A stretch of 64,000 bases of DNA, taken from Solirubrobacterales bacterium. GTDB lineage: Bacteria; Actinomycetota; Thermoleophilia; Solirubrobacterales; Solirubrobacteraceae. The first letter of the stretch is position 1, and every line of letters starts with the position of its first letter. The stretch spans positions 1 through 64,000 of the forward strand of contig JAFAYV010000056.1 in the NCBI GenBank assembly GCA_019240115.1. The letters are read 5' to 3'. Shown here piece by piece: positions 168-18,615 of this stretch. The translations under genes were made by a program, and so were the position numbers. The notes beneath the pieces were generated by a model. The model was not told the DNA's origin, searched no databases, and worked only from the letters and a program-made list of their open reading frames with translations.

Positions 168-181
168 ACGCCTGATCAGAA

Positions 182-253
182 GAGCCCGGTGACGGGAGAC
201 TGTCACGCCGGGATCTGAGGGAGCCCGGGGGTGCAACCCCCCCGGGCCACCCG
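182..253 (+). ncRNA. Group II intron domains V and VI, 3' end of intron
   Basis: Bases 182-216 fold as a domain V-like hairpin. GAGCCCGG pairs with CCGGG-ATCT, and an inner TGAC pairs with GTCA around a GGGAGACT-type loop; the catalytic AGC triad would be A183-C185. Bases 218-250 form a second strong hairpin (GCCCGGGGG paired with CCCCCCGGGC) that fits domain VI, with an unpaired A near 235-236 as candidate branch point. The intron boundary is placed at about 250-254 from family resemblance and is not exact. Confidence 0.7.
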
Positions 254-734
254 ACTCCCAAGTCGTCCCCGGCGCAATCGCTGCGGCGCCACGACTTGCG
301 CTGACGACGATCGAATCTCCAACAACGGCGGACGTTTCGGCGGTGCGGGACGTCTTCGGGGACGTCTTCAGCACGCGAGTGCGTGGAGTGTATGTCTGTC
401 GCTGGATGTCTGTCGCTGGCAGACGGATGACTGGGGAGGCCTGGGTGGCTGCAGCGACGAGCGACGTCCAGGTTTCCACGAGCAGCGGCAGTTCGGAGCG
501 GCCTGGCACCGATCTCAACGCGCGTCAGCTTCATCGAAGCCGGATGCGAGATCAGAGCGCTGGGATCAACGCGCGTCATTCTTCTTCATGCTGAGCTCGC
601 TCTTGACGTGCGCGGTGTGTGCTCAGCCGGGCACGGACGCCCGGCCCGGTCTCCGCGCCCGACCGCCCGCGCTCGCGCCACCGGCCCCTCGCTCCCCTTC
701 GTTGCCCGTTCCGTGATCCGGATCGACTGACCTG
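254..734. other. Gene-free stretch downstream of the intron, with short direct repeats
   Basis: No convincing gene is seen on either strand; long frames here have no recognisable domains. A 13-bp direct repeat, TCAACGCGCGTCA, occurs at about 516-528 and again near 564-577. A 19-bp word, AAGCCGGATGCGAGATCAG (537-555), recurs exactly at 5100-5118 beside a hicA fragment. The stretch is best read as intron target DNA plus remnants of mobile or accessory sequence. Confidence 0.5.
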
Positions 735-16355: not shown

Positions 16356-17378
16356 CTAGGCCGTGGTGACGGCGCGCTCGGTCGCGCGCAGCACGCCGGC
16401 ACGATCCTTGTGCGAACGCTCGTACTCGCGAACCGCCTTGAGGCGATCCTCGTCGGCATCAGACAGGCGCGCCTGCACGTCGGCCGCGTTCTGCTCGTCG
16501 TAGCCGGGCCACGGCTCCTCGCCCTGCAGGGACTCCACCCGGCTGAGCACCGTGGTGCGGTTCTGGCCGCGGCGCTCGTAGGCCTGCACCTTGGCGAGAT
16601 CGACCTGCGAGAGGCCGGGCAGTCGGTGGGTGATCTCCTCCGCGGTGAGCCCGTCATAGCCGGAGAGGGGGAGGTCATCCTCGCTGGCCGCCGCTGCCTT
16701 GACCGCGCCTTCGGCCTGAGCGACCCCCGGAACCTGTCGCGCCTGGCGTGCCACGCGGCGGGTGGCCCCGGCCGTCTTGCGCGCGGCGTCGCGCGCCGTC
16801 TCGCCCGCCTCGCGGGCCGCGTCCGCGGCGCCGGTCTCGGTCACGTCGTAGGAGGGCTTCCCCTCGACGTCGGCGGCGACGACGCTCTCGGCCAAGCGCG
16901 GGATTTCATCGATCACGCGGGCGAGCATGCGCTCCTCCTCCTCGCGGATCTGCGTGGCCAGTTCGGCTGTCTTCTCGTCACCGAGACGTCGAGAGACCCG
17001 CTCGATCGCGGTGTAGGTCGCGATCTCGAGCGATTCGGTGGCGCAGGTGTCCTTGGCGTTCTTGAGCACCTTCTCCTCGCCGCCGGTCCCGCGCAGCAGG
17101 TCGAGTGGCATCTTGCCCAGCGCGAGCGTCTGACCGAGCATGTCCTCCCAGACCCCCACGAACGCCGTCATCGGATCGGATCCGGCGCCGAGCGCCTTGA
17201 GGCGATCGCCGACGCGCGCGGCGTGGTCGCGGGTCTCGTCGAGATGACCCTCCAGCAGCGATCGGTACGAGCCGCGCGGGGTCATGGCGATCTGTGACTG
17301 CAACACGCGCACGAGCGCGTGCTCCGAGGCCCGAGCCTCCACGAGGTACTGCACCAGCTTGTGTTCAGCTTTGTTCAT
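16356..17378 (-). CDS. Ferritin-like (DUF892/YciE-type) protein with duplicated C-terminal motif
   Basis: ATG 17378 gives 340 residues beginning MNKAEHKLVQYLVEARASEH. Residues ~1-165 form long amphipathic helices with Glu/His at ferritin-like positions (ASEHALVRVL, LDETRDHAARV, ESLEIATYTAIER, EEEERMLARVIDE), fitting a YciF-like di-iron bundle. A charged Ala/Arg linker (~185-235) follows. The end has two ~45-residue copies: YDGLTAEEITHRLPGLSQ...LAKVQAYERRG...TVLSRVESL, and YDEQNAADVQARLSDADE...LKAVREYERSH...GVLRATERA. The family is often stress- or stationary-phase-linked. It is divergent from the riboswitch-EamA unit. Confidence 0.85.
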   Translation of the reverse strand: MNKAEHKLVQYLVEARASEHALVRVLQSQIAMTPRGSYRSLLEGHLDETRDHAARVGDRLKALGAGSDPMTAFVGVWEDMLGQTLALGKMPLDLLRGTGGEEKVLKNAKDTCATESLEIATYTAIERVSRRLGDEKTAELATQIREEEERMLARVIDEIPRLAESVVAADVEGKPSYDVTETGAADAAREAGETARDAARKTAGATRRVARQARQVPGVAQAEGAVKAAAASEDDLPLSGYDGLTAEEITHRLPGLSQVDLAKVQAYERRGQNRTTVLSRVESLQGEEPWPGYDEQNAADVQARLSDADEDRLKAVREYERSHKDRAGVLRATERAVTTA

Positions 17379-17572
17379 ACGACAATCCCAATCAGATCGA
17401 GGAACACATCGGCAGCGCACGGACGGCGCGGTGGCGAGACCGTCGAGCTGCCAATCGGTTCTACCCCACGATAGACCGCCCGTCGCCCTCATCACGACAC
17501 GAACACATTCCCGCCGATCGGGCCGGACGCGATCGCATGCCGGATCCCCGCTAAGCTCAGGTTCAGCACGAG

Positions 17573-17716
17573 GATGCGCCTAGGGTTCCGCTCCCGCCCG
17601 CGCCGCTGCCGCGGCCACGCACATTGAGGGTCGGGAGGACCGAGACCAAGCGGCGACAGGGCGGCCCGGTTGGGGTGGTCCAGACCTGAAGGGATAAAAG
17701 CCCGGAGGGCTCCGTT
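17573..17716 (+). promoter_or_regulatory. ykkC-family riboswitch candidate (guanidine-I most likely)
   Basis: Three conserved blocks of ykkC RNAs occur in order and spacing: CTAGGGTTCCGC (17580-17591), GTCGGGAGGACCGAGAC (17630-17646) and GGGATAAAAGCCCGG (17691-17705). The known class senses guanidine (subtype 1); related subtypes sense ppGpp, PRPP or nucleotides. The ACACGG block I expect just before GGGATAAAAGCCC in guanidine-I RNAs is not clearly present, so the ligand is uncertain. A GCCCGC-AGCG-GCGGGC hairpin (17722-17737) then sits directly upstream of the AAGGGAG ribosome-binding site and could be the expression platform. It lies in the leader of an EamA transporter. Confidence 0.8.
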
Positions 17717-17751
17717 GTCGTGCCCGCAGCGGCGGGCGGAAGGGAGCCTTC

Positions 17752-18615
17752 ATGTCGCTTGATGTCCTCGCCCTGGTGGTGGTCGCCGCCTTCGCCCATG
17801 CCGGGTGGAATCTCATCGCCAAGCCGGCGGGTGGAGGCGCGGCTTTCGTATGGCTGTGCGCCGCGGCGGGCACCGTGCTCTACACGCCACTCCTGGTCGT
17901 GGCCCTCGCTGTCGATCCGGGACGCCTGGGTTGGTCCGCGATCGGCCTGATGGCCGGGAGCGGGCTGCTGCATGCCCTGTACTTCGTGCTGTTGCAGCGC
18001 GGGTACGCCACCGGGGACCTGTCGTTGGTCTACCCCTTGGCTCGCGGCACGGGACCGCTGCTGTCGGCCACGGCGGCCATCATCTTCCTGGGCGAGCGCC
18101 CCAGTCTCGTGGCGGGCGTCGGGGCGGCGATCATCGTCATCGCCGTGTTCTCGCTGAGCCGGCGCGTCGACCGGACCGCCTCGGGATGGCTCGGTCGCGG
18201 CACGGTGTATGCGCTGCTCACGGGCGCGGCGATCGCCAGCTACACGCTCTGGGACAAGCACGCGGTGAGCGCCGCCGCCCTCTCGCCGATCGTCTACTAC
18301 TGGGGCACCAACCTGGCCAATGCGCTGCTCCTCTCCCCGGTCGCCCTGCGACAGCGCGCCGATCTGCGCGACGCCTGGAGATCGTCGCGGCGGCGTGCCG
18401 TCGGCGTCGGGCTGCTGAGTCCGCTGGCCTACATCCTCATCCTCTACGCCCTCGTCCGCGCGCCGGTCACCTACGTGGCCCCCGCGCGGGAGAGCAGCAT
18501 CGTCGTCGGGACACTGCTCGGCGCGCTCGTGCTGCACGAGGGCGACACCCGCCGACGGCTGGTCGCCGCCATCGGGATCCTGATCGGCGTCGTCATCCTC
18601 ACCGTGGGCTATTGA
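17752..18615 (+). CDS. EamA/DMT-superfamily transporter under a ykkC-type leader
   Basis: The 287-residue membrane protein has about 10 hydrophobic helices in two halves (EamA repeat), starting MSLDVLALVVVAAFAHAGWN. It has GDLSLVYPLARGTGPLLSA in the first half and ILYALVRAPVTYVAPARESS then VVGTLLGALVLHEGDTRRR in the second, the standard EamA half-repeat ends with a Glu. DMT transporters move small metabolites across the cytoplasmic membrane. The ykkC-family leader suggests export of guanidine or a related toxic small molecule, as SMR-type DMT proteins do; that function is inferred. Confidence 0.9.
   Translation: MSLDVLALVVVAAFAHAGWNLIAKPAGGGAAFVWLCAAAGTVLYTPLLVVALAVDPGRLGWSAIGLMAGSGLLHALYFVLLQRGYATGDLSLVYPLARGTGPLLSATAAIIFLGERPSLVAGVGAAIIVIAVFSLSRRVDRTASGWLGRGTVYALLTGAAIASYTLWDKHAVSAAALSPIVYYWGTNLANALLLSPVALRQRADLRDAWRSSRRRAVGVGLLSPLAYILILYALVRAPVTYVAPARESSIVVGTLLGALVLHEGDTRRRLVAAIGILIGVVILTVGY

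Follow-up and report, generated by a model that had tools for sequence, protein, structure and literature searches.

A divergent ykkC subtype 2d leader upstream of an EamA transporter gene: evidence for a probable translational ON switch

Introduction

The leader of an EamA/DMT transporter gene in a Solirubrobacterales bacterium (GenBank assembly GCA_019240115.1) raises the question of which ykkC-family RNA it carries, how that RNA acts on the gene and what it senses. The window analyzed here is the whole stretch of 64,000 nucleotides at positions 1 to 64,000 of contig JAFAYV010000056.1, and all coordinates refer to its + strand. An initial annotation proposed a ykkC-family riboswitch, left its subtype and ligand open, and suggested that EamA would add a transporter type to the guanidine-linked genes. 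Within the family, subtype 2d is described as an orphan class located on EamA (phn_DUF6) and TauE genes (PMC7266159, PMC5912903). Its consensus was judged nearest to guanidine-I in the available text of PMC5912903, whose authors guessed at a small, charged, toxic ligand. A literature search with thin coverage of subscription journals returned no report of a solved 2d ligand. According to PMC6031431, guanidine-I RNAs are sorted by an adenine at position 46, where 2a and 2b carry a pyrimidine, and ykkC switches for guanidine, PRPP and ppGpp all act as ON switches.

Results

The three conserved blocks named in the initial annotation, CTAGGGTTCCGC (17580-17591), GTCGGGAGGACCGAGAC (17630-17646) and GGGATAAAAGCCCGG (17691-17705), match the window exactly, with one + strand occurrence each, in that order. 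A default Rfam scan reported no family at the leader, and a permissive scan of 17300-17900 returned a single family, Guanidine-I (RF00442), at 17569-17709 with 28.6 bits (E 0.0036 in 601 nt), short of the gathering score of 63. No second convincing copy was found in a whole-genome RF00442 scan; the sole other match (15.5 bits, E 4.8) was taken as chance. Among 151 relative genomes searched with RF00442, 12 matched at E 0.1 or better and eight scored above the cut-off, all eight being plain guanidine-I. Three weak matches (L011-L013) preceded EamA or TauE genes, as did a fourth leader (L016) that was found via its EamA protein. A covariance model built from these four leaders alone, with the window left out (R1), scored the window leader at 89.2 bits (E 8.7e-22 in 100 kb); the next-best match in the window scored 14.9 bits. 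The proposal of a ykkC-family RNA ahead of the EamA gene was thus borne out, at a level beyond chance. The ordered core blocks and a three-helix aptamer are those of the ykkC superfamily. In a separate part of the window, positions 180-255 (+) matched a Group II intron domain (RF00029, 48.2 bits).

Further searches covered 396, 349, 39 and 200 genomes and were joined by one pattern scan of named genomes, from which 80 of at least 119 matches were used, all with actinobacterial titles. The resulting set of 105 2d-like leaders comprises 25 from the genome searches, picked by reading and including the window, and those 80 of at least 119; leaders of the guanidine-I type and those ahead of guaA were excluded. 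Near-duplicates are present, and 93 leaders are distinct, with L167, at a contig edge, left out of this and later counts. When the downstream genes were compared by BLAST with four reference proteins, 86 of the 105 leaders preceded an EamA gene like that of the window, 14 a TauE gene and 3 another EamA clade, and 2 had no reading frame at contig ends. Pfam agreed with the assignment in the five proteins tested, the EamA of the window and four others. The initial annotation had asked whether homologous EamA genes carry the same leader; those at these 86 loci do, but not every EamA: in the family of the window a clear 2d leader was present at only 3 of 22 EamA loci, and the closest EamA (64% identity, L015) had none. 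In one genome (JAFAYQ01), one 2d RNA precedes EamA and the other precedes TauE (L129, L130).

The position equivalent to position 46 is C17651 in the window, and a C is found there in all 93 distinct 2d leaders, the window included; among the guanidine-I controls, 26 of 27 carry A and the remaining one G. Likewise, P3 reads CACGG in 27/27 guanidine-I leaders and in no 2d leader, where CACC and CAUC types are found instead. R1 separated the two groups as well, giving 21.3-31.0 bits for 8/8 guanidine-I leaders against 89.2 bits for the window. The expectation of a subtype other than 1 was therefore correct, with a C in place of the marker adenine and an RF00442 score (28.6 bits) that stays under the cut-off of 63.

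The gene downstream, at 17752..18615 (+), encodes a 287-aa EamA/DMT transporter, as the initial annotation had it (PF00892, 66.2 bits). Among NCBIfam models, TIGR03340 phn_DUF6 fits the protein best (133.8 bits, below the cut-off of 288). No purine or amino-acid biosynthesis genes of the kind expected for 2b or 2a lie downstream, only EamA. Because EamA is nearest to phn_DUF6, the leader is assigned to subtype 2d, a label resting on gene context, the marker base and our own model. The idea that EamA extends the list of guanidine-linked transporter types did not hold, since EamA (phn_DUF6) and TauE are, in the available text of the published descriptions, the context of the non-guanidine subtype 2d, and the marker adenine is absent. 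The leader is a riboswitch candidate belonging to a known orphan class and provides no new guanidine link.

The genes flanking EamA, which encode a DUF892 protein and an NmrA-like protein, lie on the opposite strand, so EamA is probably transcribed alone. An AlphaFold2 model of the protein (pLDDT 92.5) has the ten-helix DMT fold, and its job would be export. Phmmer found no sequence relative of the protein in the PDB. A fold search ranked the choline importer LicB first (Z 30.9) and also returned the triose-phosphate translocator (Z 22.2), giving matches to both cation and anion transporters without deciding between them. Arg98, Asp168, Arg246 and Glu247 are invariant in 76/76 EamA proteins; in the AlphaFold2 model, helix 4 carries Arg98 and the break in helix 9 carries Arg246. 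At 13 Amycolatopsis-like loci (L065, L066, L068-L071, L073, L077, L078, L104, L140, L156, L162), a small VOC/glyoxalase gene lies 16-45 nt after the 2d-EamA gene.

A -10-like box, TAAGCT, is located at 17552..17557 (+), 22 nt before CTAGG. In 15 of 17 leaders sharing the 5' tail type of the window, TANNNT precedes CTAGG by 21-22 nt, and in 55 of 56 short-tail leaders by 14-15 nt; another 18 leaders are mixed. Given this conserved spacing, transcription would probably start near 17564, slightly upstream of position 17573, where the element had been thought to begin.

The aptamer, in its long form, is predicted at 17564..17714 (+; R1 89.2 bits). The 5' strand of P1, GCGCC (17576..17580), pairs with GGCG (17652-17655), with the outermost G17576 facing A17656, so that one P1 pair is broken. 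The conserved block CTAGGGTTCCG (17580..17590) forms the 5' side of P1a/P1b. The P1b element ACATTGAGGG (17621..17630) is the window version of ACAATCAGGG, a motif of long-form leaders. The core is ACCAAGC (17645..17651), which reads ACCGAGC or TCCGAGC in other leaders and ends in C17651 at the place of the guanidine-I marker. The initial annotation had placed the conserved core on the first ACCGAG of its second block; this was rejected, as both model and fold favor the next motif, ACCAAGC, and give P1b a single additional A. The P2 hairpin (17659..17681) was assigned from a fold of the aptamer alone. P3 (17682..17703) is formed by AGACCTGA and GGGATAAAAGCCC, with helix P3b joining 17691-17693 to 17701-17703, and the CCT of P3a (17685-17687) pairs with 17706-17708 in the model or 17707-17709 in the fold.

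Folded alone, the window aptamer adopted the consensus structure, with P3a using 17707-17709. An alignment and model were made with 84 of the 104 parsed leaders. Co-variation was found in P1 (CG/UA, CG/GC), and P3a varied little (UG/CG/GC). The aptamer pairs contained 143 double-change cells compared to 49 in shuffles, and 0/500 shuffles reached 143; because the alignment was fitted to the structure this count leans towards it, and the permutations keep shared ancestry. Folding energy was not unusual against composition shuffles (z -0.54 for the full leader, +0.93 for the aptamer). A P0 helix between the 5' and 3' tails, of the kind found in PRPP and ppGpp riboswitches, seemed persuasive on visual inspection (AGC pairing with GCT) and showed some double changes in the structure-fitted 84-leader alignment, and it had no pairing excess, with 2063/5000 permutations reaching the observed value. 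Pairing of the P1b motif with P3, sought by eye, was not consistent.

The hairpin that the initial annotation had noticed at the ribosome-binding site is present at 17718..17740 (+) in the free fold and is followed by the Shine-Dalgarno sequence (17740-17746) and the ATG at 17752. It serves as a spacer within a longer-range structure. In the unconstrained fold, an anti-Shine-Dalgarno strand, GAGGGCTCC (17705..17713, +), which overlaps the 3' strand of P3a, pairs with 17743-17751 over the spacer hairpin and is predicted to mask the ribosome-binding stretch AAGGGAGCCTT (17740..17750, +) when ligand is absent. This pairing was assessed across 91 leaders, with the two that lack a reading frame left out, by taking the six bases after GA and asking for full pairing anywhere in the next 60 nt. 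Six consecutive pairs were found in 67/91 leaders, compared to a mean of 35 and a maximum of 49 with swapped partners (1000 trials), and the mean duplex energy was below that of all 5000 permutations. The partners change together (GGACCC/GGGUCC, GGAACC/GGUUCC, GGAGCC/GGCUCC, GUAGCC/GGCUAC). This helix with compensatory changes excludes an aptamer helix, as expected for a translational platform. At L042, L044 and L048, where 2d-like RNAs precede a different EamA clade, the 3' strand does not fit this scheme.

Forcing the aptamer fold on the window leader cost 8.5 kcal/mol, a cost that ligand binding would therefore need to pay. Without ligand, 17705-17713 would pair with 17743-17751 and translation would be low. 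With ligand, P3 would close and its outer helix P3a would take AGG (17706-17708); the masking helix would then lose its start and the ribosome site would be free. Some bases belong to both P3a and the masking helix, so a bound ligand would be expected to release the site, making ON the presumed direction of the switch. What is new here is a co-varying helix between the aptamer 3' strand and the ribosome-binding site, which, on sequence evidence, implies a translational ON switch.

Two structural forms were found among the 93 distinct leaders: P1b is long in 36, including the window, and short in 57. The motif AMAWYSRGRG, chosen after looking at the leaders, is present in 31/36 long-form leaders (0.145 expected from shuffles) and 0/57 short-form leaders; it lies on the 3' side of the P1b loop and usually reads ACAATCAGGG. 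Both forms occur with EamA and with TauE genes, which argues for one function. The gene neighborhoods of the two forms differ. PhnD-like genes (TIGR01098) were found in 20 of 75 2d loci of at least 7 kb, and some 2d loci also contain PhnC, PhnE, HpnW (TIGR03364), PhnX-like (TIGR03351) or HpnZ (TIGR03366) genes. Phosphonate genes were present in 22/55 short-form and 0/19 long-form loci (Fisher p = 0.0004), the 22 being the 26 loci with phosphonate-type matches minus L097, L098, L118 and L135, which had only 32-37% ABC or dehydrogenase matches.

These neighborhoods suggest a narrower version of our preferred explanation, in which the ligand of 2d RNAs is a phosphonate or an oxyanion like it, exported by EamA and TauE; we consider this version possible though doubtful. 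Besides the PhnD-like, HpnW, PhnX-like and HpnZ genes, this is consistent with the position of the only PhnD-like copy of two genomes (G424, G466) 1.9 kb from a 2d RNA and of one of two copies in a third (G456) 4.1 kb away. The triose-phosphate translocator is reported to hold phosphate by K204 and K362/R363 (PMC9010763), and the invariant Arg98 and Arg246 of EamA would, in the model, lie on helices 4 and 9, where the translocator holds phosphate. By our own count mapping onto the PRPP aptamer residues given in PMC6031431, 2d RNAs appear to keep the equivalents of G48, C49 and C78 of the phosphate site. An EamA protein is also described within a phosphonate biosynthesis cluster (PMC12871164). 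Against an oxyanion ligand, none of the 19 long-form loci, the form of the window, had phosphonate genes; a TIGR01098 search found none in the genome of the window or in four related 2d genomes; LicB outranked the phosphate translocator in the fold match; and neighboring genes may not share a ligand. In its fullest version, 2d RNAs would detect organophosphonates, or another tetrahedral oxyanion of related kind, with a guanidine pocket reworked for a phosphoryl-like group, and would switch on two unrelated exporters, EamA and TauE, when PhnCDE uptake or internal metabolism fills the cell; this we regard as rather unlikely. Long- and short-form RNAs may read two different such ligands. A phosphonate-like oxyanion is our boldest guess, worth testing and no more.

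The core of the window leader has several oddities. CAAGC in place of CGAGC is found in the window alone (1/93). AGACC in place of ACACC is shared only with L079 among the 93 leaders, both also having A for C after GGCG, and L151 likewise has the additional A in P1b. These features may be either natural variation or early decay. 2d decay seems to occur in nearby lineages: besides the leaderless L015 of the same genus, a further EamA leader of that genus (L026:1389-1500, G009), with a -10 box, a P3-like stem and an anti-SD/SD pair, has lost P1 and P2 and is apparently an eroded 2d riboswitch. The unique CAAGC, the other core changes and these two relatives would fit a decaying riboswitch that has lost ligand sensing in the lineage of the window and only lowers translation. 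The leader nonetheless retains its long-range helices and the masking helix, one P1 pair excepted, two of its odd features are also seen in distant relatives (AGAC plus GGCGA in L079 and, in L151, the additional A), and its score of 86.8 bits is mid-range for the 84 leaders (57-116), the window being in the training set of that model. Decay is improbable.

Discussion

On the computed family membership, subtype marker, gene context and co-varying masking helix, the leader very probably represents a divergent 2d member that controls a single EamA (phn_DUF6-like) gene as a translational ON switch. Most likely, the RNA switches translation on as a small molecule, probably not guanidine, accumulates. 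That the leader is instead a divergent guanidine-I riboswitch, with EamA exporting guanidine and the odd core reflecting mere drift, is highly improbable: RF00442 is the only Rfam family to report it, the authors of PMC5912903 place the 2d consensus closest to guanidine-I and guess a small, charged, toxic ligand, and the bacterial family also has genuine guanidine-I leaders (8/151 genomes above cut-off), but guanidine-I identity was rejected on a score of 28.6 of 63 bits, a C for the marker A and the replacement of CACGG in P3, and the genes after the guanidine-I leaders inspected here resemble, by eye, hydrolases, urea-carboxylase-associated proteins and other transporters, not EamA. Guanidine is thus unlikely to be the ligand of the window RNA.

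With the leader described here, one of the few ykkC classes that are still orphan gains a divergent member. Those seeking the ligand now have a probable start of the RNA, two structural forms, one of them linked to phosphonate genes by neighborhood, and a shared translational read-out backed by naturally occurring compensatory pairs. The ligand question is now directly testable with a short compound list.

Among known systems, the guaA-associated ykkC RNAs (L074-L076, L080, L083) share with the window the C at the A46 position, and they differ in a CACCTCCGGGA-type P3 and in their GMP synthase genes. These five RNAs, which combine a subtype-2 base with a guaA gene named by eye, have a context not named among the 2a-2d contexts in the available text of the published descriptions. 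The PRPP (2b) and ppGpp (2a) riboswitches also have a C at the A46 position, and their gene context differs from that of the window. Guanidine-I (RF00442) has CTAGGGTTCCG, the P1-P2-P3 layout and the GGGAUAAAAGCC loop in common with the window, which in contrast lacks A46, CACGG and a guanidine gene context and reaches only 28.6 of 63 bits. Published 2d, compared by description only, differs from the window in that the window core is divergent (CAAGC, AGACC and the extra A), and the two have in common the ykkC core, the non-guanidine marker base and an EamA gene nearest to phn_DUF6.
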